From contig NZ_VENP01000001.1 in the NCBI RefSeq assembly GCF_006351005.1, forward strand, positions 62,001-126,000: 64,000 nt of DNA, written 5' to 3'. Positions 1 through 56,395 of the stretch are shown here, piece after piece. A model generated the notes under the pieces. The model was given only the letters and a program-made list of their open reading frames with translations, was not told where the DNA came from and did not search any database. The number at the start of each line of letters is the position of its first letter. Positions within the stretch are counted from its first letter, which is position 1. The DNA comes from Miniimonas arenae (GTDB taxonomy: Bacteria > Actinomycetota > Actinomycetes > Actinomycetales > Beutenbergiaceae). Both the position numbers and the translations under genes were made by a program.

Positions 1-609
1 GTAGGCGGTGGTGGTCTTCCCGTTCGTGCCGGTCACCGCGACCGTGACGAGGTCGTCGGAGGGGCGGCCGTAGACGGTGTCGGCGAGCTCGCCGGCGAGG
101 GCGCGGGGGTCGGCGGCGACCAGGACGGGCACGGCGCGCGGCAGCGGCGGCACCTGCGGCACCGCGTCGGTGGCGCTGTCGACGGTCGCGTCGCTGTCGA
201 CGGTCGCGTCGCCGGCCTCGCCGGCGGCCGCGCGGAGCAGCGCGCGGGCGCCGACCTCGTCGGTCACCACGGCGACGGCGCCGGCCGCGACCGCGGCGGC
301 CGCGAAGCGCGCGCCGTGGGCGCGCAGACCGGGCACGGCGACGAACAGATCGCCCGCGCGGGCCTCGTCGCTCGCGACCGTCACGCCGGTGACGAGCACG
401 CCGTCGAGCACGGCTTCGAGCGTGCCGCGGGAGGATCCGACGGTGCCGTGGAGCGCGTCGTCAGGGACGCCGTCGAGCCCGTCCGCCGTGCCGTCCGGAG
501 ATGCCGGGACGCCCTCGGAGGCGACGGTGAGCGCGTACGCCGCAGCGAGCTCGGCCAGCGGAACGGCCGGCACGCGCGTGGGTCGCAGCTGCGCCAGGGG
601 TGCGGTCAC
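1..609 (-). CDS. murE: UDP-N-acetylmuramyl-tripeptide synthetase (MurE), N-terminal part, cut by window edge
   Basis: Mur ligase that adds the third stem-peptide residue to UDP-MurNAc-L-Ala-D-Glu in the cytoplasm. Only the first 203 residues are in the window. They end in the Mur-ligase ATP-binding loop VTGTNGKTTTAY, which normally separates the N-terminal nucleotide-sugar domain from the central ATPase domain. MurE rather than MurF is inferred from position directly after ftsI and from the N-terminal domain order (a typical 'VTVASDEARAGDLFVAVPG' stretch at about residue 75-93). The GTG start at 609 lies 11 bp after the ftsI stop. A -10-like TAGATT, whose first three bases are the ftsI stop codon, precedes it by 8 nt, so an internal leaderless promoter is possible in addition to read-through from the cluster promoter. 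Confidence 0.9.
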   Translation of the reverse strand, partial: MTAPLAQLRPTRVPAVPLAELAAAYALTVASEGVPASPDGTADGLDGVPDDALHGTVGSSRGTLEAVLDGVLVTGVTVASDEARAGDLFVAVPGLRAHGARFAAAAVAAGAVAVVTDEVGARALLRAAAGEAGDATVDSDATVDSATDAVPQVPPLPRAVPVLVAADPRALAGELADTVYGRPSDDLVTVAVTGTNGKTTTAY

Positions 610-617
610 GTCGAGCC

Positions 618-623
618 AATCTA
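618..623 (-). promoter_or_regulatory. Candidate -10 element for murE overlapping the ftsI stop codon
   Basis: Minus-strand TAGATT, eight nucleotides before the murE GTG. The TAG is the ftsI stop. It fits the actinobacterial TANNNT -10 consensus at a distance that would put the transcript start at or next to the start codon. Inferred from sequence only; no clear -35 is seen. Confidence 0.4.
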
Positions 624-2939
624 CCCGTCGTACCCGGGCACGCTCATGTCTCCGCCGGGGGTCAGCGGGTACAGCGGCTCGGTCACGCCGGTCGGCGGGA
701 TGCCGAGCGTGGAGAGGGCGAACGACGCGATGTCGTGGAACACCGGGGCCGCGATCGTGCCGCCGAAGAACCCGTGCTGCGGCCGGTAGATGATGACGCC
801 GACGGCGATCTGGGGGTCGTCGGCGGGCACGACGCCCACGAACGACGCGGCCGAGTCGGTGAGCCGGCCGTCCGTGGTGTTCGCCACCTGCGCCGTCCCC
901 GTCTTGCCCGCCACCCGGTAGCCGTCGATGGCGGCGCGGTTGCCCGTGGCGCCGTCGGCCGAGGTCACGCTCTCGAGCATGAGGAGCATCTGGTCGGCCG
1001 TCTCGGGGCTCACCACGCGCACCGGGTCCGCCACCGTCTGGGGTGTGAAGGTCCCGCTGGAGTCGGTGAAGCCGGAGACGAGGTGCAGCTGGTTGCGCAC
1101 GCCGCCGTTGCCGAGGGTCGCGATGACGTTGACGTTCTGCAGCAGGTCCACGGCCACGCCCTGGCCGAACATGCTCGCGTACTTGGTGCGGCCGTCCCAC
1201 CCGTCGGGGTCGAGGTTGTAGCCGCCGCTCTCCCCCGCGAGCTCCACCCCGCTCGGCTCGTCCCAGCCGAACGCCTGCATGTACTTCGCGCGGGTCGCGT
1301 CCGACATGAGCGATCCGATCTGGATCGTGCCGGTGTTGGAGGAGTCCGCGAGGATGCCCGCGACCGTGAGCCGCTCGTCAGGGTGCTCGGTGTGGTCCTT
1401 GAACACCTGGCCGTTCGGCGTCGTGTAGTGGTAGGGCACGTCGAAGTCCGACGTCGGGCTGATGAGCCCCTCCTCCATCGCCGCGGCGACCGTGAGGATC
1501 TTGCCCGTCGAGCCGGGCTCGTAGGGGCTCTGCACCGCGTTGATCTTGCCGAAGCCGGTGGGCGCGTTGGGGTCGATCATGTCCGACTCGCACAGCGCGA
1601 GGACCTCGCCGGTCTTGACGTCGACCACGGTGGCCGCCGCCCACTCGGCGCCGGTCTCTGTCTTCTTGGCGTCGATGACCTGCTGGCACTGCTGCTGGAG
1701 GTCGAGGTCGAGAGTGGTGTGCACGGTCTCGCCGTCCCGCGCCGCCACGACGGTCTGCGCGGCCCCGGGGATGACGGTGCCGCCGACCCCGATCTCGACC
1801 GTGCGGCTGCCGTTGGTGCCGGTCAGCACGTCGTCGAAGCGGGACTCCAGGCCCGCCGCACCCTGCAGCGTGCCGTCGCCGTCGGTGTCGTTCACCCAGC
1901 CGACGATGCTGCCGGCTGTGCTGCCCCCGGGGTACACGCGCTTGGTCTTCTGCTCGGTGGTCAGGCCGTTGATGCCGAGGTCCATGACCTGCTGGCGCAC
2001 CTCGGGCGTGACGTCCGTCGCGATGACCTTGTACCCCGCGGTGCCGGTGAGCGTGGCCCCCAGCTCGTGCTCGCTCACGCCGAGCAGCGGCGCGAGCGCC
2101 GCAGCGGCCGCGCTCGCGCCACGCCCCTCGACGGTCGAGTTGTCCTCGCCGTAGCGGACGTACGCGGGCACCTGCCGCTGGTCCACGACGACGTCGTAGC
2201 GCACCACCGAGGTCGCGAGCACGAACCCGTCGGCGTCGACGATCTCCCCGCGCGAGGCGTGCACCGTGTAGGTGCGCTCGCGCTGGCTGCGCGCCTGCTC
2301 CGCGAGCGCGGCGCCGTCGATCACCTGGACCTGGACGAGGCGGCCCGCGAACATGAGCAGCAGCACCAGCACGACGGCGAGCATCACCTTCTGCCGGCGC
2401 TGCGAGCTTCCGACGCGGATCGACGCCGCGCCGCCCCCGCCGGAACCGCCGGACCCACCCCGACCACCCGACCCTGGACCGCCGGCGCCCGAACCGGCAC
2501 CGCGGCGGGGCCGCACCGGCGTGGCACGCGGAGCGCCCGCCCGGGACCGGTTGGCCTGCCGGGGCGCGCCGGTGTGCGGGCGCGGCGCACCCTTCGCGGG
2601 TGCGCCCTGTCGCGTCGGCTGCCGCGTGGTTGTGCGTGCGGTGGTCTGGCGTGCGGTGGTCTGGCGTGCGGCGCCCTCCCGGGACGCGGTGCCGGACGTC
2701 GTGCGGGGCGTCGCGCTCGCCGTCGCGCGGGGCGACGCCGCACGGGCGGTCCGCGGGGCGGGGACGGTCGAGCGGGCAGCACCCGCTGCGCGTGCGGCCT
2801 GCTGTGCCCCCGTCATGTGCCCCGATGCTGCCCGGCCGCCCCGCGCGCCCGGCGCCGACACGCCGGGCGACTGCGCCCGCGCCTGCGACATCGACGACGC
2901 CGTCACGCGCTCTGCACGGCCCGGACCCGGACGCGTCAC
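621..2939 (-). CDS. ftsI: Peptidoglycan D,D-transpeptidase FtsI (PBP3), with long cytoplasmic tail
   Basis: Septal class B penicillin-binding protein that cross-links peptidoglycan at the division site. It has a single membrane span at about residues 181-205, a dimerization domain and a C-terminal transpeptidase domain. The three active-site motifs are SxxK (STGK, about 474), SxN (SSN, about 531) and KTG (KTGTAQ, about 677). The 180-residue N-terminal cytoplasmic part is low-complexity, rich in Ala, Thr, Arg, Pro and Gly, and holds TTARQ-type repeats encoded by a 15-bp DNA repeat near 2640-2670. I chose the GTG that overlaps the ftsL stop (GTGA), because this genome uses such overlaps often. 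A GTG at 2906 and an ATG at 2891 are alternatives, and none has a strong ribosome site. Confidence 0.93.
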   Translation of the reverse strand: MTRPGPGRAERVTASSMSQARAQSPGVSAPGARGGRAASGHMTGAQQAARAAGAARSTVPAPRTARAASPRATASATPRTTSGTASREGAARQTTARQTTARTTTRQPTRQGAPAKGAPRPHTGAPRQANRSRAGAPRATPVRPRRGAGSGAGGPGSGGRGGSGGSGGGGAASIRVGSSQRRQKVMLAVVLVLLLMFAGRLVQVQVIDGAALAEQARSQRERTYTVHASRGEIVDADGFVLATSVVRYDVVVDQRQVPAYVRYGEDNSTVEGRGASAAAAALAPLLGVSEHELGATLTGTAGYKVIATDVTPEVRQQVMDLGINGLTTEQKTKRVYPGGSTAGSIVGWVNDTDGDGTLQGAAGLESRFDDVLTGTNGSRTVEIGVGGTVIPGAAQTVVAARDGETVHTTLDLDLQQQCQQVIDAKKTETGAEWAAATVVDVKTGEVLALCESDMIDPNAPTGFGKINAVQSPYEPGSTGKILTVAAAMEEGLISPTSDFDVPYHYTTPNGQVFKDHTEHPDERLTVAGILADSSNTGTIQIGSLMSDATRAKYMQAFGWDEPSGVELAGESGGYNLDPDGWDGRTKYASMFGQGVAVDLLQNVNVIATLGNGGVRNQLHLVSGFTDSSGTFTPQTVADPVRVVSPETADQMLLMLESVTSADGATGNRAAIDGYRVAGKTGTAQVANTTDGRLTDSAASFVGVVPADDPQIAVGVIIYRPQHGFFGGTIAAPVFHDIASFALSTLGIPPTGVTEPLYPLTPGGDMSVPGYDG

Positions 2940-3349
2940 TTGCCCGCGCCCTGGCCGCCGATCAGGGTGTGGTCCGACAGGCGCACGTAGGTGACGCCGT
3001 CGCTCGGCACGAGCCCCAGCTGCTGAGCGCGCAGCGTGACCTGCGCCGGCGAGGTGGTGTTCTCCAGGTCGGTGGCGAGCGTCTCGCGCTGCTCCTCCAG
3101 CGACGCGAGCGTGCTCGCCCGGTCGCGCAGCGTGTAGGAGGTCGCGGCCATCGAGGTGTTCAGCGCGAGCGCGCCGAGCAGGGCCGCGACGAGGATCGCG
3201 GCGCACAGCGCGAAGAACGGCGCGCGCGTGGCGTCCGGCGCAGCGTTCGGGACGATACGCAGGCGCGCGCGCGGCGACGGCGCGGCCACCGCGGTGCGCC
3301 GGGGGGCGTAGGAGCGGGCCGTGCCGATCCGTGCGGGTGCGACGCTCAT
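2936..3349 (-). CDS. ftsL: Cell division protein FtsL-like
   Basis: Small bitopic division protein of 137 residues, located between rsmH and ftsI as FtsL is in actinobacteria. After a basic cytoplasmic N-terminus of about 40 residues there is one membrane span (APFFALCAAILVAALLGALA region) and then a short extracytoplasmic coiled-coil-like segment (TLASLEEQRETLATDL). FtsL works with FtsB/DivIC and FtsQ to recruit and activate FtsWI. Sequence conservation in this family is low, so the call rests on size, topology and position. Its ATG overlaps the rsmH stop by four bases (ATGA), implying translational coupling. Confidence 0.82.
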   Translation of the reverse strand: MSVAPARIGTARSYAPRRTAVAAPSPRARLRIVPNAAPDATRAPFFALCAAILVAALLGALALNTSMAATSYTLRDRASTLASLEEQRETLATDLENTTSPAQVTLRAQQLGLVPSDGVTYVRLSDHTLIGGQGAGK

Positions 3350-17546: not shown

Positions 17547-18584
17547 TCAGAACCCGAGCTGGCGTGCCGCCTGGCGGATGTGCTCCGCGCTGCTGCGCAG
17601 CAGGTTGAGCTCCTGGGCGCTCATGGGGATCGCGAGCCGCGCGCCGGCGCCCGCGCGATCGACCACGGTCGGCATCGAGAGGCACACGTCCCCGACACCC
17701 GCCAGCTCGCCTGCGACCTGGGTGGAGATGGGCAGCACGCGGTGCTCGTTGCGCAGCACCGCCTCGATGATCCGGGTCACGGAGAGGCCGACCGCGTAGT
17801 TCGTCGCCCCCTTGCCCTCGATGATCGAGTACGCGGCGTGCACCACGTCGTGCCCGATGCGGCGCCGCAGCTCGTCGGTGAACACCGGCTCGCCGTCGGC
17901 CCCGAGCCACTCCAGGAGCGGGACGCCGGCGATCGAGGCCGAGCTCCACATCGGCACCTCGGAGTCGCCGTGCTCGCCGAGGATGTAGGCGTGCACGTTC
18001 TGCACGGCCACGCCGCACTCCCGGGAGATCTGGAACCGCAGGCGCGAGGAGTCCAGCACCGTGCCGGACCCGAACACCTGCGACGGCGGAAGGCCGGTGA
18101 GCTTCTGCGCGGCGTACGTCACGACGTCGACGGGGTTCGTCACCATGATCTGGATGGCGTGCGGCGCGATCTCGACGAGCGTCGGCAGCACCTTCTTCAC
18201 GAGGCCGACGGTCTTGGCCGCCAGCTCCATGCGGCTCTGGCCCGGGTCCTGCTTCGCCCCCGCCGTGAAGACCACGATGTCGGCGTCGCGGCAGATCTCG
18301 ATGTCGTCGCTGCCCTCGATCGTGGCCTGCGGGATGAACTCGATCCCGTGGCCGATGTCGGCCGCCTCCGCCTTCACCTTGGGGGCGTTGACGTCGTAGA
18401 GCACCACCCGGCGGGCGGCCCCGCGGACGAGTGCGGTGTAGGCGAGAGTGGAGCCCACCGACCCTGCGCCCACGATCGCGACGGTGGAGTAACGACGGAA
18501 CGGGTTCTCCAGACCGTCGTCGCCGAGGAAGGACACCGACGGGCTGGCCGGCGCTGACGTGGGGTCGTGCGGCTGGTCGCTCAT
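17547..18584 (-). CDS. ldh: L-lactate dehydrogenase
   Basis: NAD-dependent reduction of pyruvate to L-lactate. The 345-residue protein has the Rossmann loop VAIVGAGSVGSTLAY (about 35-49), the acidic NAD-binding Asp in LYDVN, the substrate Arg in QSRMELAAKTV, and the catalytic His in GEHGDSEVPMWS (about 202). The first 30 residues are a Ser/Pro-rich extension. Lactate rather than malate dehydrogenase is supported by Gln in AGAKQDPGQSR. ATG at 18584; TAGCAT six bases upstream begins with the stop codon of the preceding helicase gene, so a leaderless promoter inside that stop is likely. Confidence 0.95.
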   Translation of the reverse strand: MSDQPHDPTSAPASPSVSFLGDDGLENPFRRYSTVAIVGAGSVGSTLAYTALVRGAARRVVLYDVNAPKVKAEAADIGHGIEFIPQATIEGSDDIEICRDADIVVFTAGAKQDPGQSRMELAAKTVGLVKKVLPTLVEIAPHAIQIMVTNPVDVVTYAAQKLTGLPPSQVFGSGTVLDSSRLRFQISRECGVAVQNVHAYILGEHGDSEVPMWSSASIAGVPLLEWLGADGEPVFTDELRRRIGHDVVHAAYSIIEGKGATNYAVGLSVTRIIEAVLRNEHRVLPISTQVAGELAGVGDVCLSMPTVVDRAGAGARLAIPMSAQELNLLRSSAEHIRQAARQLGF

Positions 18585-18590
18585 GGGTTG

Positions 18591-18596
18591 ATGCTA
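18591..18596 (-). promoter_or_regulatory. Candidate -10 for ldh overlapping the dinG stop codon
   Basis: Minus-strand TAGCAT, six nucleotides before the ldh ATG. Its TAG is the stop codon of the DinG-type helicase. Confidence 0.45.
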
Positions 18597-20702
18597 GTGA
18601 GACTCGGCGGCAAGTCGACGCAGCGCTCCGCGAGCGATCTCGCCGTCCCGGGTCGGCCACATCGGCGGCAGGGACCGCTCGAGGAACCCGCCGTAGCGCG
18701 CGCGGACGAGCCGGGAGTCCAGGATCGCGACGACGCCGCGGTCCTGTGTCGACCGGACCAGGCGTCCCACGCCCTGCGCGAGCAGCAGGGCGGCGTGCGC
18801 CGCCGAGACGGTGAGGAACTCGTTCTTCCCGCGCCGCGCCGCCACCTCCGAGCGTGCCTGCACGACGGGGTCGTCCGGTCTCGGGAACGGGATGCGGTCG
18901 ATGACCACGAGGCGGTTCGTGCGGCCGGGGACGTCCACGCCCTGCCACAGCGACAGGGTGCCGAAGAGGCTCGTGGCGTCGTTCTCGCGGAACCGGGCCA
19001 CCAGGGTCGCGAGCACGTCGTCGCCCTGGCAGAGCACCTCCAGCCCGGTCGCCGCCCGCACGTGCGCGGCCGCGAGCTCGGCCGCGCGCCGCGAGGAGAA
19101 CAGGCCGAGCGCACCTCCGCCCGAGGCCGTGACGAGCGAGACCAGCTCCTCGAGCATCGCGTCGCTCGGCGTCGGACCCGGCGCCGGCAGGTGCGCCGCC
19201 ACGTAGCGGATCGCCTGGCGCCGGTAGTCGAACGGGCCCGGCACGGTGAGCTCGCGGTAGGTGTCGGCCCCATGCAGCCCGACGTCGTGCGCCGCCCCCT
19301 CGAACGTCCCGCCGATCCGCAGGGTCGCCGAGGTCAGGACCGCGCCGCGGTCGGTGAGCAGGTGCTCGGCGACGAGGCCGGCGACCTCGAGCGGCGCGAC
19401 CCGCAGCCGCCGGGAGCCGTCGGTGAGCTCCTCGCACCACAGGACGTCGCGGCGCTGGGCGACGGCGTCGGACAGCAGGCGGTCCACGATCTCCACGCCC
19501 ACCGTGAGCGCCGAGCGCGCCATCTGCAGAGCGCCGTCGGGCGCGGCCCCCGAGGCCGGCTTCGTGGCCGTCAGCGCCTCCCGGAGCGCGGCGCCCAGCA
19601 GCGTGACGATCCCCTCGAGCTCGACGCTCAGGCCCGACGGGAGCCGGCCGGGCGGTACCTCCGCGAGCGCCGCGGACAGCGCGTCCGCCGCGTCGTCGAG
19701 GCTCGCGACGACGGCGCCCGCGTGCCGGCGCACCATGCGCGCGGTGCGCCCCACGCTCGCGGCGGAGAGCTCGGCAGTCGCCGCCGCGCGGGCGCGCGCC
19801 GCCAGCTCGTGCGCCTCGTCGACCACGACGGCCTGGTGCTCGGGCAGCACCCCCGGCGAGCCAGAGGCCGCGATCCCCAGGATCGCGTGGTTGGTCACCA
19901 CGACGTCGGCCGCGTGGGCGGCGACCTTGGCGCGCTCGGGGAAGCACTCGGCCAGCAGCGGGCAGCGTGGGCCGAGGCAGTCCATGGCAGGGACGGACAC
20001 CTGCCGCCAAGCGCGGTCGCTCACGCCGGGCACCAGATCGTCGCGGTCGCCGGTCTCGGTCTCCTCGGCCCACGTGCGCAGCCGGACGACCTGCTCCCCC
20101 AGCGACTCCTCCTCGGCGCCCGCGGGGTGCTCGGTCGCGAGGTCGAGCGCGAAGAGGCCAGGCGCCTCGTCCGGGTACCCGCCGTCGAGCCGGTGCCGGC
20201 ACAGGTAGTTGTGCCAGCCCTTGAGCAGGGCGACCTGCGGCGCCCGCGGCAGCAGCGGCTCGAGCGCACCGGACACGAGCGGGAGGTCCTTGATCAGCAC
20301 CTGACGCTGGAGCGCGAGCGTCGCGGTCGAGACCACGACACGCTCGTTGCGCGTCACCGCGTGCACGACGGCGGGCACGAGGTACGCGAGCGACTTGCCG
20401 GTCCCGGTCCCGGCCTCCACGAGCAGCGGCACGCGATCCTCGAGCGCGTCCCAGACCCCGTGCGCCATCGCGTGCTGACCCTCACGACGCTCACCGCCGA
20501 GCGCGGTCACGACGGCGTCGAGCGCCTCGTCGAGGTCGACGTCCGAGCCGGAGCCGCTCGCCGACCCGCTCGCCGACGAGGCCGCGGACGCGGCCACACC
20601 GCCCTCTGCCGTCTGGACGGCGGCGGCCTCGACGTCGGCCTCCGCGCCGGCAGCGGCAGCGCCAAGGCTCGAGCGCGTTCCGCTCACGCGCGTCTCACCC
20701 AC
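18594..20702 (-). CDS. dinG: DinG-type ATP-dependent DNA helicase (XPD-like, iron-sulfur)
   Basis: Superfamily 2 5'-3' helicase, 702 residues. Walker A is EAGTGTGKSLAYLVP (about 94-108) and the DEAH box is VVVDEAHELAAR (about 288). Between them are four cysteines in XPD/DinG spacing (NYLC near 168, then DCLGPRCPLLAEC near 241-253), consistent with a 4Fe-4S cluster. The final motif QGVGRLVRSTQDRGVV is clear. DinG-type enzymes resolve R-loops and damaged forks. The first 50 residues are low-complexity Ala/Ser/Gly. GTG start at 20702. No LexA box is visible upstream despite the 'din' name. Confidence 0.9.
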   Translation of the reverse strand: MGETRVSGTRSSLGAAAAGAEADVEAAAVQTAEGGVAASAASSASGSASGSGSDVDLDEALDAVVTALGGERREGQHAMAHGVWDALEDRVPLLVEAGTGTGKSLAYLVPAVVHAVTRNERVVVSTATLALQRQVLIKDLPLVSGALEPLLPRAPQVALLKGWHNYLCRHRLDGGYPDEAPGLFALDLATEHPAGAEEESLGEQVVRLRTWAEETETGDRDDLVPGVSDRAWRQVSVPAMDCLGPRCPLLAECFPERAKVAAHAADVVVTNHAILGIAASGSPGVLPEHQAVVVDEAHELAARARAAATAELSAASVGRTARMVRRHAGAVVASLDDAADALSAALAEVPPGRLPSGLSVELEGIVTLLGAALREALTATKPASGAAPDGALQMARSALTVGVEIVDRLLSDAVAQRRDVLWCEELTDGSRRLRVAPLEVAGLVAEHLLTDRGAVLTSATLRIGGTFEGAAHDVGLHGADTYRELTVPGPFDYRRQAIRYVAAHLPAPGPTPSDAMLEELVSLVTASGGGALGLFSSRRAAELAAAHVRAATGLEVLCQGDDVLATLVARFRENDATSLFGTLSLWQGVDVPGRTNRLVVIDRIPFPRPDDPVVQARSEVAARRGKNEFLTVSAAHAALLLAQGVGRLVRSTQDRGVVAILDSRLVRARYGGFLERSLPPMWPTRDGEIARGALRRLAAESH

Positions 20703-24409: not shown

Positions 24410-25345
24410 TCAGCCGCGGTCAGCCGCCGCGGCCGCGAGCGCCCCGAGCGCGAGCTCGACCTGGCGGGCGAGCGGTTCCTCGCCGTCAAGGTGCACGATC
24501 CGTGGGTCGCGGCCGAACCAGCTCGTCTGACGGCGGGCGACCTGCCGGGTGGCGACCGTCGTCGCCTCGACGGCCTGCGCCGTCGTGAGCCGTCCGTCCA
24601 GGACCGCGAGGGCCTGCGCGTACCCGACCGCGCGCGAGGCCGTCACGCCGCGTTCGAGACCCGCCGCGCGCAGTGCGGCGGTCTCCTCGAGCAGCCCGCC
24701 CGCGAACATCGCCTCGGCGCGACGTGCGACGCGTTCCACGAGGACGGGGCGCGGTACGTCGAGCGCGAGGTGCAGCGTGGGCACGAGATCGGCGTAGGTC
24801 GGCAGCTGCGCCGTGTAGGGGCGACCGGTGAGCTCGATGACCTCGAGCGCGCGGACGAGCCGGCGGGTGTTGTGCCGGCCGATGCTCTCGGCCGCCGCGG
24901 GGTCGAGCCGCTCGAGCTCGCGGTGCAGGAGTCCCGGCCCCTCGCGCTCGCCGCGCGCCTCCCAGCGGGCGCGAACCTCCGGGTCGGTGTCCGGGAAGTC
25001 GAGGGCGTCGAGCGCGGCACGCACGTAGAGCCCGGAGCCGCCCACGAGCAGCGGCTGCGCACCGCGCGCGGCGATGTCGGCGAGCGCCGCGCGCGAGTCG
25101 ACCTGGTAGGCGGCGACCGAGGCCTCCTGCGTCACGTCGAGCACGTCGAGCAGGTGGTGGGGCACGCCGGCGCGCTCGCCGACGGGCGTCTTCGCGGTGC
25201 CGACGTCCATGCCGCGGTACAGCTGCATCGAGTCGGCGTTGACGATCTCCCCGCCGAGCCGCCGCGCGAGCTCGATCGCGAGTGCGCTCTTGCCGCTCGC
25301 CGTGGCGCCGACGACGGCGATCACGGGCGACGGCGAGGTGGGCAC
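24410..25345 (-). CDS. miaA: tRNA dimethylallyltransferase
   Basis: Adds a dimethylallyl group to A37 of tRNAs reading UNN codons; MiaB, 2.3 kb away, then methylthiolates it. The 311-residue protein has the P-loop VVGATASGKSALAIELARR (about 9), the NADSMQLYRGMDVGTAK segment, the LVGGSGLYVRAALD motif and the HNTRRLVRALEV motif. GTG at 25345. TAGCCT eight bases upstream starts with the stop codon of the nuclease gene before it. Confidence 0.95.
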   Translation of the reverse strand: MPTSPSPVIAVVGATASGKSALAIELARRLGGEIVNADSMQLYRGMDVGTAKTPVGERAGVPHHLLDVLDVTQEASVAAYQVDSRAALADIAARGAQPLLVGGSGLYVRAALDALDFPDTDPEVRARWEARGEREGPGLLHRELERLDPAAAESIGRHNTRRLVRALEVIELTGRPYTAQLPTYADLVPTLHLALDVPRPVLVERVARRAEAMFAGGLLEETAALRAAGLERGVTASRAVGYAQALAVLDGRLTTAQAVEATTVATRQVARRQTSWFGRDPRIVHLDGEEPLARQVELALGALAAAAADRG

Positions 25346-25353
25346 GAGCGGTG

Positions 25354-25359
25354 AGGCTA
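25354..25359 (-). promoter_or_regulatory. Candidate -10 for miaA overlapping the upstream stop codon
   Basis: Minus-strand TAGCCT, eight nucleotides before the miaA GTG; the TAG (25357-25359) ends the endonuclease/exonuclease/phosphatase gene. Confidence 0.4.
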
Positions 25360-26049
25360 CCGTGGCCGGACCTCGAGGAGCACGGCGCGGTGGTCCGAGA
25401 CCGGGCGAGCGCCCGCTCCGTGGCCGGCGGCACCAGCCGGACCGGAACCCGCCACCTGCATCCCCCGCACGAGCACCGCGTCGAGGCGGTGCCGCGCGTG
25501 CCGCCCGGCGCCGACCGGGAACGTCGGTGCACCCGCAGGGTCGGCGTCCAGCAGCCCGCCGCCGAGCGCCGTCCAGGCGGGGCCGCCGGGCGGCTCGTTG
25601 AGGTCGCCGGCCAGCACGAGTCGGGGCGCGCCAGCGAACGCGGCCGCGAGGGCGTGCGCCTGGGCGGTGCGCGCGTGCGGCGCGACGTCGAGATGAGCGG
25701 ACGCGACGACGAGAGTCACGCCGTCGTGCCGCACCCGGACCCACGTGGCGCCGCGCGGGTAGGACCACCACCACCCGCGACGCTCCCGCGGGAACCGGAC
25801 CACCCCGGCGCGCCCGGCCTCCGGCGCCGACCGACCAGCCCTCAGGAGCACTGCGAGCCCGGACCGTCCGCCGCCCGAGGCGAGGCGCAGTCCGGCTGCC
25901 CGCGCGGCGAGCCGGAGCACGAGTCGGCCACCCGGCCAGCGCGGACACTCCTGCAGGCACACGACGTCGGCCCTCACCTCGCGCAGCGCGCGCACCACGC
26001 GGACGGGGCCGCCCCGCAGCCCCCACACGTTCCAGGTCAGCACCCGCAC
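25357..26049 (-). CDS. Endonuclease/exonuclease/phosphatase (EEP) family protein
   Basis: 230 residues of the EEP fold (exonuclease III, DNase I and phosphatase relatives). Conserved metal and catalytic motifs: TWNVWGL at the N-terminus, LQECPRWPG with the metal Glu (about 34), SAHLDVAPH, AGDLNEPPGG (about 146) and the C-terminal SDHRAVLLEV. No signal peptide, so probably cytoplasmic; substrate cannot be told. GTG start at 26049 with GAGAAT six bases upstream and no ribosome site. Divergent from the first YbjN gene. Confidence 0.88.
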   Translation of the reverse strand: MRVLTWNVWGLRGGPVRVVRALREVRADVVCLQECPRWPGGRLVLRLAARAAGLRLASGGGRSGLAVLLRAGRSAPEAGRAGVVRFPRERRGWWWSYPRGATWVRVRHDGVTLVVASAHLDVAPHARTAQAHALAAAFAGAPRLVLAGDLNEPPGGPAWTALGGGLLDADPAGAPTFPVGAGRHARHRLDAVLVRGMQVAGSGPAGAAGHGAGARPVSDHRAVLLEVRPR

Positions 26050-53837: not shown

Positions 53838-54308
53838 TCAGCCGCGCCGTCCGGCGCGCTCGACCCGCTCGAGCCGGACGGCGCGGCGCAGCGACTCGCG
53901 CGCGTGCCGCCGGTCGCCCGCCGCGTCGTAGGCCCAGCCCAGGTGGAACCACGCGCGCCAGCTGTCCGGCTCGGCCGCGACCGCGTCCCGGGCCGCGAGG
54001 AACTGCTCGGCGGCCACGCTGCGGTCGATCCGCCCACCGGGCGAGCGGGGCAGGTCGTCCTCGTGCAGCCCGCCCTCGTCGGCGAGCCGCTTCGTGAGCG
54101 CGTCCACGGCCATCGCCTGACCGACCTCGCGCACCACGAACCACACCACGAGCAGCGGGATGATCAGCACGGCGAGGCCCAGGGCCACGCCGACCGCGCG
54201 GCCGCTCGTCACGAGCGCCCAGCCGCGCCACGCGACGGCCCACACGTAGAGCAGCAGGAGCGCCACGGCGATCGCCGCGACTCCGATCCCCCGCGCGCGC
54301 CGGCTCAC
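53838..54308 (-). CDS. Membrane protein with a C-terminal TPR-like repeat
   Basis: 156 residues. Two membrane spans (about 8-25 and 34-56), a charged loop, then one tetratricopeptide-like unit (DSWRAWFHLGWAYDAAGDRR, about 120-139). Function not recognised. GTG at 54308 overlaps the dapB stop (GTGA), so it is translated with dapB; whether that means a wall-related role is unclear. Confidence 0.8.
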   Translation of the reverse strand: MSRRARGIGVAAIAVALLLLYVWAVAWRGWALVTSGRAVGVALGLAVLIIPLLVVWFVVREVGQAMAVDALTKRLADEGGLHEDDLPRSPGGRIDRSVAAEQFLAARDAVAAEPDSWRAWFHLGWAYDAAGDRRHARESLRRAVRLERVERAGRRG

Positions 54309-55048
54309 AGGTCGAGGTAGGCGTCGAGCCCGACGGCGAGCCCCGGCCGGGTACCGATCTCGCGGATCGCGAGGAGCACCCCGGGCATGAAGCTGCTGCG
54401 GTCGAAGGAGTCCGTGCGGATCGTGAGCAGCTCCCCGGGGTTGGACAGGAAGACCTGCTCGTGCGCCACCAGCCCCTCCAGCCGCAACGCGTGCACGTGG
54501 ACGCCGTCGACGTCGGCGCCGCGGGCACCGTCGGGGTCGAGCTCGGTGGCGTCCGGCATCGGGGGTGCACCCGCGGCCGCACGGGCCTGAGCGACGCCGC
54601 GGGCGGTGTGCACCGCGGTGCCCGACGGCGCGTCGACCTTGCGGGGGTGGTGCATCTCGACGACCTCGACCGAGGCGAACAGCGGGGCGGCGATGGCGGC
54701 GAACCGCATCGCGAGCACCGCCGAGAGCGCGAAGTTCGGGGCCACGAGCACCCCGAGGTCGGGGGTCTGTGCGAGGTGGGTGCGCACCCGCGCGAGGGCG
54801 GCGTCGTCCCAACCGGTTGTGCCGACGACAGCGTGCACCCCGGAGTCGAGCAGCGCGTGCACGTTGCCCTCGGTCACCGTGGGGACCGTGAAGTCGACCG
54901 CGACGTCGGCCACGCCTGCGAGGGCGGTGACGTCGTCACCCGCGTCGAGCTCCGCGACGAGCTCGAGGCCCTGCGCCGCGCGGACGGCCTGCGCCGTCGT
55001 CGTCCCCATCCGTCCCGCCGCGCCGAGCACGGCCACCCTGATCGTCAC
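54305..55048 (-). CDS. dapB: 4-hydroxy-tetrahydrodipicolinate reductase
   Basis: 247 residues; NAD(P)H-dependent second step of the lysine/DAP branch. Nucleotide loop VAVLGAAGRMGTT (about 5), VGTTGW, and the catalytic EMHHPRKVDAPSGTA (about 131-145) with His and Lys. GTG at 55048. TAGGGT six bases upstream starts with the stop codon of the M16 peptidase gene, so a leaderless promoter is likely. Confidence 0.95.
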   Translation of the reverse strand: MTIRVAVLGAAGRMGTTTAQAVRAAQGLELVAELDAGDDVTALAGVADVAVDFTVPTVTEGNVHALLDSGVHAVVGTTGWDDAALARVRTHLAQTPDLGVLVAPNFALSAVLAMRFAAIAAPLFASVEVVEMHHPRKVDAPSGTAVHTARGVAQARAAAGAPPMPDATELDPDGARGADVDGVHVHALRLEGLVAHEQVFLSNPGELLTIRTDSFDRSSFMPGVLLAIREIGTRPGLAVGLDAYLDL

Positions 55049-55054
55049 GGGGCA

Positions 55055-55060
55055 ACCCTA
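55055..55060 (-). promoter_or_regulatory. Candidate -10 for dapB overlapping the M16 stop codon
   Basis: Minus-strand TAGGGT, six nucleotides before the dapB GTG; TAG (55058-55060) is the stop of the M16 peptidase gene. Confidence 0.42.
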
Positions 55061-56395
55061 GGCGAGGGACGCGAGCACCTCGCCCGCGACGTCGTGGGTC
55101 GCCGGGCCGACGACGACGAGCGAGCGCGGCCGGGCGAGCAGGTCGACGGCGAGCGCTCGCACGTCCTCGGCCGTCACCGCGCGGATGGCGGCGAGCGTCT
55201 CGTCGACGTCCCACCACTGCCCCAGCGTGACCTCGGCGCGGGACAGCCGCGACATCCGCGAGCCGGTGTCCTCCAGGCCGAGCACGAGCGAGCCGACGAG
55301 CTGGCCGATCGCCCGGTCGAGCTCCTCGGGTGTGACGCCGTCGGTCGCGAGCGAGCGCCACTCCTGCGCCATGAGCGTGGCGACCTCGGCCACGCGCGCG
55401 GGCTGACAGCCGGCCGCGAGGCCGAAGTACCCGGCCTCGGTGTAGCTGGTCGCGAACGAGTAGACGGAGTAGGCGAGGCCACGCTTCTCGCGGATCTCCT
55501 GGAACAGGCGCGAGGACATCCCCCCGCCGAGCACCGCGTTGAGGACGGAGAGCGCGAACCGGCGCTCGTCGTCGGCGGCGATCGCGCGGCCGCCGAGCAC
55601 CACGGTCGCCTGCTCGGTCGAGCGGTGCACGGTGAGCGCCGTCCCCGGCGCCTCGGCGGGCGGCTGCTCGGTGCGCCGCGGCGCGGGCCGCGCGCCGCGG
55701 GCGAGCTCCCACCCGCCGTCGAGCGCGCCCTGGCGCACCATGGCGCACAGCGCGTCGTGGTCGACGGCGCCCGCGGCCGTGACGACCAGCTCGGCCGGGG
55801 TGTAGGTGCGCCGGTAGTGGTCCCAGACCGCGTCACGCGGGACCGCGCGGATCGTCTCGGGGGTGCCGCCGATCGGGCGGCCGAGCGGGTGGCCGGCCAG
55901 CACCGCGGCGGCGAAGGCCTCGTGCGCGACGTCGTTCGGGTCGTCGTCGGCCATCGCGAGCTCCTCAAGGATCACGCCGCGCTCGAGCTCGACGTCCTCG
56001 ACGTCGAGCGTCGCCGAGGTGACCATGTCCAGGAGCACGTCGGTCGCCATGGCCTGGTCGGCCTGGAGCACGCGCGCGTAGTAGGAGGTGCTCTCCTTGC
56101 CGGTGACGGCATTCGCCTCGCCACCCACGGCGTCGAAGGCGGCGGCGATGTCGAGCGCGTCCCGGCGGTGGGTGCCCTTGAAGAGCAGGTGCTCGAGGAA
56201 GTGCGTGGAGCCGTGGTGGCCGTCGCGCTCGTCTCGCGAGCCGACGGCGACCGTGGCCGAGATCGAGACCGACCGCGTCGCGGGGATGGTCTCGGAGAGG
56301 ACGCGGACCCCGCCCTCCAGGACGGTGCGGCGCAGCCGCGAGCCGTCCTGGAGGGTGAGGTCGAGCTCCTCGGTGGAACCGAGGGGCAGGGGCAT
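55058..56395 (-). CDS. M16 family zinc metallopeptidase (insulinase/processing-peptidase type)
   Basis: 445 residues, the short bacterial form. Inverted zinc motif HFLEH at 65-69 with the third ligand Glu in GVILEEL (about 144-145); the C-terminal half has RLFQEIREKRGLAYSVYSF, typical of the paired M16 domain. It follows pnp by two bp, the conserved pnp-pepR arrangement of actinobacteria. Natural substrate unknown. ATG at 56395. Confidence 0.93.
   Translation of the reverse strand: MPLPLGSTEELDLTLQDGSRLRRTVLEGGVRVLSETIPATRSVSISATVAVGSRDERDGHHGSTHFLEHLLFKGTHRRDALDIAAAFDAVGGEANAVTGKESTSYYARVLQADQAMATDVLLDMVTSATLDVEDVELERGVILEELAMADDDPNDVAHEAFAAAVLAGHPLGRPIGGTPETIRAVPRDAVWDHYRRTYTPAELVVTAAGAVDHDALCAMVRQGALDGGWELARGARPAPRRTEQPPAEAPGTALTVHRSTEQATVVLGGRAIAADDERRFALSVLNAVLGGGMSSRLFQEIREKRGLAYSVYSFATSYTEAGYFGLAAGCQPARVAEVATLMAQEWRSLATDGVTPEELDRAIGQLVGSLVLGLEDTGSRMSRLSRAEVTLGQWWDVDETLAAIRAVTAEDVRALAVDLLARPRSLVVVGPATHDVAGEVLASLA

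Follow-up and report, generated by a model that had tools for sequence, protein, structure and literature searches.

Overlap of upstream stop codons with putative leaderless promoters at tandem gene junctions of Miniimonas arenae

Four tandem junctions in the M. arenae window

The window, a 64,000-nucleotide stretch of the Miniimonas arenae genome, contains four junctions of tandem genes with a common organization. All are on the minus strand, and in each the TAG stop codon of the upstream gene is the first half of a TAGNNT hexamer that is followed, after 6 or 8 nt, by the ATG or GTG of the next gene. The genes and hexamers are positioned as follows:

1–609, minus strand: 5′ part of murE, putatively leaderless, GTG at 609; the gene continues outside the window
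618–623, minus strand: TAGATT, ftsI stop and predicted -10 of murE, 8 nt to the GTG at 609
621–3206, minus strand: ftsI (FtsI-type PBP), TAG-terminated; longest ORF, true start uncertain
17547–18584, minus strand: ldh, L-lactate dehydrogenase (L-LDH), putatively leaderless, ATG at 18584
18591–18596, minus strand: TAGCAT, dinG stop TAG (18596–18594) and predicted -10 of ldh, 6 nt to the ATG at 18584
18594–20702, minus strand: dinG/yoaA-type helicase gene, TAG-terminated
24410–25345, minus strand: miaA, putatively leaderless, GTG at 25345
25354–25359, minus strand: TAGCCT, stop of the Exo_endo_phos gene and predicted -10 of miaA, 8 nt to the GTG at 25345
25357–26049, minus strand: endonuclease/exonuclease/phosphatase family gene (EEP, Exo_endo_phos), true start uncertain
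54305–55048, minus strand: dapB, putatively leaderless, GTG at 55048
55055–55060, minus strand: TAGGGT, stop of the M16 peptidase gene and predicted -10 of dapB, 6 nt to the GTG at 55048
55058–56395, minus strand: M16 family peptidase gene, TAG-terminated

Gene identities were assigned with NCBIfam and Pfam, with the exception of murE, which was assigned from its position after ftsI and from homologous matches at the junction. Read 5′ to 3′ along the genes, the junctions are CAC TAG CAT CAACCC ATG (dinG/ldh), CGG TAG CCT CACCGCTC GTG (Exo_endo_phos gene/miaA), GCC TAG GGT TGCCCC GTG (M16 peptidase gene/dapB) and GGG TAG ATT GGCTCGAC GTG (ftsI/murE). The sequence agrees with an earlier note on this DNA, which described the dinG TAG as the first half of TAGCAT, six bases before the ldh ATG, and the shared layout that it reported for EEP/miaA, M16/dapB and ftsI/murE is correct in coordinates and spacing at all sites.

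Enrichment of TA-type stops and the identity of the putative promoters

The M. arenae genome is 3.40 Mb in 148 contigs, from which we sampled 1.115 Mb (74.1% GC), together with about 0.4 Mb from each of two relatives, G023 and G022 (0.40 and 0.39 Mb), for a total of 1.9 Mb. Genes were called in all three samples by a simple codon-usage script. Before motif correction the coding-only caller misplaced three of the four junction starts. Starts called in DNA of this kind cannot be relied on, and we therefore used a start-independent test, which asks for each tandem pair whether there is an ATG or GTG in the frame of the downstream gene at a distance d past the upstream stop. A second version of the test uses motif-corrected starts.

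In tandem pairs across the 1.9 Mb, 26 of 31 TA[G/A]NNT stops have an in-frame ATG or GTG 9–11 nt downstream, compared to 32 of 773 other stops (p=5e-28), and with the four prompting sites dropped the counts are 22 of 27 and 32 of 773 (p=1e-23). By genome, the start is present at 15 of 18 such stops in M. arenae, eight of eight in G023 and three of five in G022. For TAGNNT stops specifically, 21 of 25 have an in-frame start at d=9–11, and the proportion is 0–12% in all other distance bins. A start at this distance follows four of 68 TAGNNV stops and 27 of 630 TGANNV stops, and none of the 71 TGANNT stops in the tandem pairs of the three genomes. When motif-corrected starts are used in M. arenae, TA-type stops account for 18 of the 25 stops at d=9–11, and for shares of 0.01–0.31 at other distances. 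The earlier note had anticipated a bias toward TAG with a T at the sixth position at intergenic distances of about 6–20 bp; this bias is present in the M. arenae sample and both relatives, although it is restricted to a gap of 9–11 nt (6–8 nt from hexamer to start), and it involves TAA in addition to TAG. We take the overlap of stop codon and predicted -10 to be real and widespread in GC-rich M. arenae, where the putative core of the next promoter quite often is the upstream TAG.

The spacing of the hexamers is that of leaderless promoters. TANNNT is found 12, 13 and 14 nt before the start of 76, 46 and 16 of 458 divergent genes respectively, and of 78, 35 and 21 of 1141 tandem genes; in both sets the counts at other offsets are mostly 0–8, with single values up to 12. 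A hexamer with leaderless spacing is ahead of 137 of the 458 divergent genes (30%), and as these genes have no same-strand upstream stop the hexamer would serve transcription there. SD-like motifs are rare in the hexamer-bearing class (5/137 and 0/102, compared to 45–49% of other genes), and there is neither a positional TTG peak nor an upstream base bias in this class that would correspond to a -35 element. An SD-like motif is present at three of the 24 coincident sites, in some instances because TAAGGT itself contains AAGG, and no Shine-Dalgarno sequence was seen by reading the sequence at the four junctions. The start codons at these junctions are ATG, GTG, GTG and GTG; the class scan accepted ATG and GTG starts only, and the class-wide counts are uninformative on start codon type.

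With TANNNT, 6–8 nt from hexamer to start, ATG or GTG at the four sites, no Shine-Dalgarno and no conserved -35, the TAGNNT hexamers have the appearance of true -10 sequences, and the four sites appear to belong to the known class of actinobacterial leaderless promoters, identified by their spacing; the earlier note gave the spacing without recognizing this class. RNA synthesis is predicted to start at the start codon of the next gene, and the conservation of the promoters (see below) together with the missing Shine-Dalgarno suggests that the downstream gene is likely transcribed independently of its upstream neighbor, as the earlier note had proposed.

Order of promoter and stop codon

The orthologous junctions were compared in 24 genomes of the family and, for murE, in further families of the order. 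TAGATT is present downstream of ftsI in all 24 family genomes (G002 lacks a start codon at leaderless spacing), but it serves as the ftsI stop in just five of them (M. arenae [G000], G004, G005, G006 and G023). In 17 genomes ftsI ends upstream of TAGATT with TGA, in G022 it ends with a TAG 13 nt upstream of TAGATT, and in G001 it ends at an in-frame TAG two codons before it. We note that the G001 gene has in-frame TAGs six bases apart (TAG AGG TAG ATT), such that the TAG of the murE -10 would be a second stop. TAGATT or TAGGTT is also present before murE in Cellulomonas, Isoptericola, Oerskovia, Sanguibacter, Jonesia and Buchananella, and outside the family ftsI ends 49–133 nt ahead of the murE hexamer in the species checked on the tree. 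Two Demequina genomes (D. aurantiaca and D. oxidasica) have TAATTT, 8 nt and ATG at this junction, coinciding with a TAA stop, which apparently is a separate origin of the coincidence on the FtsI tree. The murE TAGATT is nearly invariant across the family, a strongly conserved putative promoter within the division and cell wall cluster, and the searchable papers, which cover the literature in part, contain no known murE promoter that we could find.

The dapB -10 is present in 17 genomes and coincides with the stop in two. In G005 the dapB match falls into two pieces with an overlap of a few bases, which suggests a frameshift or an error in assembly. Because the murE and dapB promoters occur in relatives with a separate TGA stop, the putative promoter is older there and the coincidence derived, and these are the two of the four junctions at which the order can be read. 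For miaA, the -10 is present in 18 genomes and coincident in two by the script, and in G005 and G006 the gene upstream of miaA ends in TAGCGT close to the start, outside the script's criteria. The ldh promoter is present in seven genomes, five of which show the coincidence; in G023 there is a TAGGAT 6 nt before the ldh ATG and dinG has already ended, in TGA, 17 nt earlier, and in G022 the promoter hexamer is retained inside dinG. A further junction of this type is in Isoptericola and Krasilnikoviella, where a murG-like gene is preceded by a TAGGGT that is both the TAG stop of the upstream gene and a leaderless-type -10.

The explanation that we favor, and regard as highly probable, is that upstream reading frames have been captured by the TAG of a conserved leaderless promoter, which has since held the stop codon in place. 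RNA polymerase would recognize TANNNT without a -35 box, as a housekeeping-type actinobacterial promoter, RNA would begin 6–8 nt past the hexamer at the first base of the next ATG or GTG, and the leaderless start codon would then be translated without a Shine-Dalgarno. The predicted -10 mostly reads TAG (or TAC) and other stop codons are scarce in 74% GC DNA, so that a same-strand upstream gene that is in phase would end at the TAG or TAA of the promoter. A coincident hexamer would be under double constraint, as stop and as -10, and the stop would therefore be held at TAG or TAA and not the usual TGA. The geometry, the genome-wide enrichment, the conservation of the predicted promoters and their precedence at murE and dapB are the parts of this account established by the genome sequences.

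Of the 133 leaderless-type genes in tandem, 24 have the upstream stop as the first codon of their hexamer (19 TAG, 5 TAA) and in 46 the upstream gene ends within 60 nt upstream; no upstream stop lies 1–12 nt past the hexamer start. In another seven the upstream gene ends 13–14 nt past the hexamer start, with its TGA at the start codon; in these tandem pairs (from M. arenae, G022 and G023) the -10 is inside the upstream gene and the start is both RTGA-overlapped and leaderless-type. For a neutral null we took the leaderless promoters of divergent genes, which cannot have been shaped by a same-strand gene upstream, started reading frames 60 nt upstream and followed each to its first stop. If frames are assumed to arrive evenly at the promoter region, 64 of the 149 frames (43%) that end up to and including the -10 end exactly on it, compared to an observed 24 of 70 (34%; p=0.24). 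The corresponding values for entry at 30 nt are 62% and 51%, and a null on the promoters of tandem genes with a more distant stop gives 58%. The coincidence is not above the neutral null, so that, once the promoters are there, an additional preference for TAG need not be invoked.

At convergent TA-type stops in the M. arenae, G022 and G023 samples there is a T at position 6 in one of 104, compared to 36 of 354 TGA stops (p=0.0009); ten positions were tested with no comparable loss elsewhere, and position 7 differs in the opposite direction (p=0.015). Should TANNNT readily form a promoter, stops that face an opposing gene would be expected to avoid it, and the apparent avoidance provisionally suggests that selection can see stop-derived promoters. 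We offer only tentatively the broader proposal, which on balance we doubt, that promoter function shapes stop codons genome-wide in leaderless-rich, high-GC lineages, with TA[G/A]NNT kept 9–11 nt before starts and purged where it faces opposing genes. If true, the choice of stop codon would be informative about promoters and operon boundaries.

This apparent avoidance also lends something to the model of the earlier note, in which TAG stops are positively selected to build the next promoter, the stop coming first and recruiting the sixth-position T, as do the strong enrichment of TA-type stops at 9–11 nt and the predominance of the coincidence among genomes with the ldh promoter. However, at murE and dapB most relatives, among them genomes outside the group that shows the coincidence, have the promoter but not the coincidence, and neutral capture predicts at least as much coincidence as is seen. 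The claim that TAG is 'chosen' to create a promoter is not supported by these comparisons, and a stop-first origin seems unlikely. A role in termination-reinitiation, where the stop and its spacing pass the ribosome to the downstream start and no promoter is involved, is generally favored by short stop-to-start distances. It needs neither the sixth-position T nor the exclusion of TGA seen at TGANNT stops, however, and the same hexamer and spacing precede the 137 divergent genes and are kept where the stop is 8–130 nt away; these internal controls already contradict reinitiation, and we consider it very improbable. Chance or composition, with a T falling after TAG by luck and being noticed in a search for -10 boxes, is conceivable for a pattern as short as TANNNT, but it is refuted by the enrichment without the four prompting sites, by the separate effects in three genomes and by the coincidence at the murG-like junction, and its probability is negligible.

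Relationship to known systems

The overlap of stop codon and predicted -10 provides a sequence-only marker of internal promoters within tandem genes of high-GC actinobacteria, and it aids start codon placement where codon-based calling fails, as at three of the four junctions described here. It also offers a partial reason for the persistence of TAG and TAA in TGA-dominated genomes, since some double as a predicted -10; in the M. arenae sample this is so for 15 of the 90 TA-type stops that precede a same-strand gene. In the searchable papers, which cover the literature in part, we came across no account of stop codons that systematically overlap a -10, and as far as that literature goes the overlap appears to be new as a pattern, although the promoter class is already known.

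Leaderless genes with TANNNT promoters have been described in Actinobacteria (Cortes 2013, PMC3898074; Shell 2015, PMC4633059; Zheng 2011, PMC3160421), and these have the same features as the sites here: TANNNT, no -35, 6–8 nt to an ATG or GTG and no Shine-Dalgarno, and they are common in high-GC Actinobacteria. An overlap of stop codon and Shine-Dalgarno in co-directional genes (Palleja 2009, PMC2784483) is similar in that the downstream gene there has a signal that shares bases with the upstream stop and biases it, at a fixed spacing. However, that signal is translational, with a gap of 5–8 nt and TGA or TAG favored within GGAGG-like motifs, whereas here the signal is a putative promoter -10, the gap is 9–11 nt and only TAG and TAA are used; none of the four sites has a stop forming part of a Shine-Dalgarno 5–8 nt before the start. 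The RTGA overlaps, in which stop and start signals of tandem genes likewise share bases, are common in M. arenae (143 of 649 tandem pairs have the 4-nt overlap), but they use TGA and couple translation, whereas the overlaps described here have a gap of 9–11 nt and exclude TGA.
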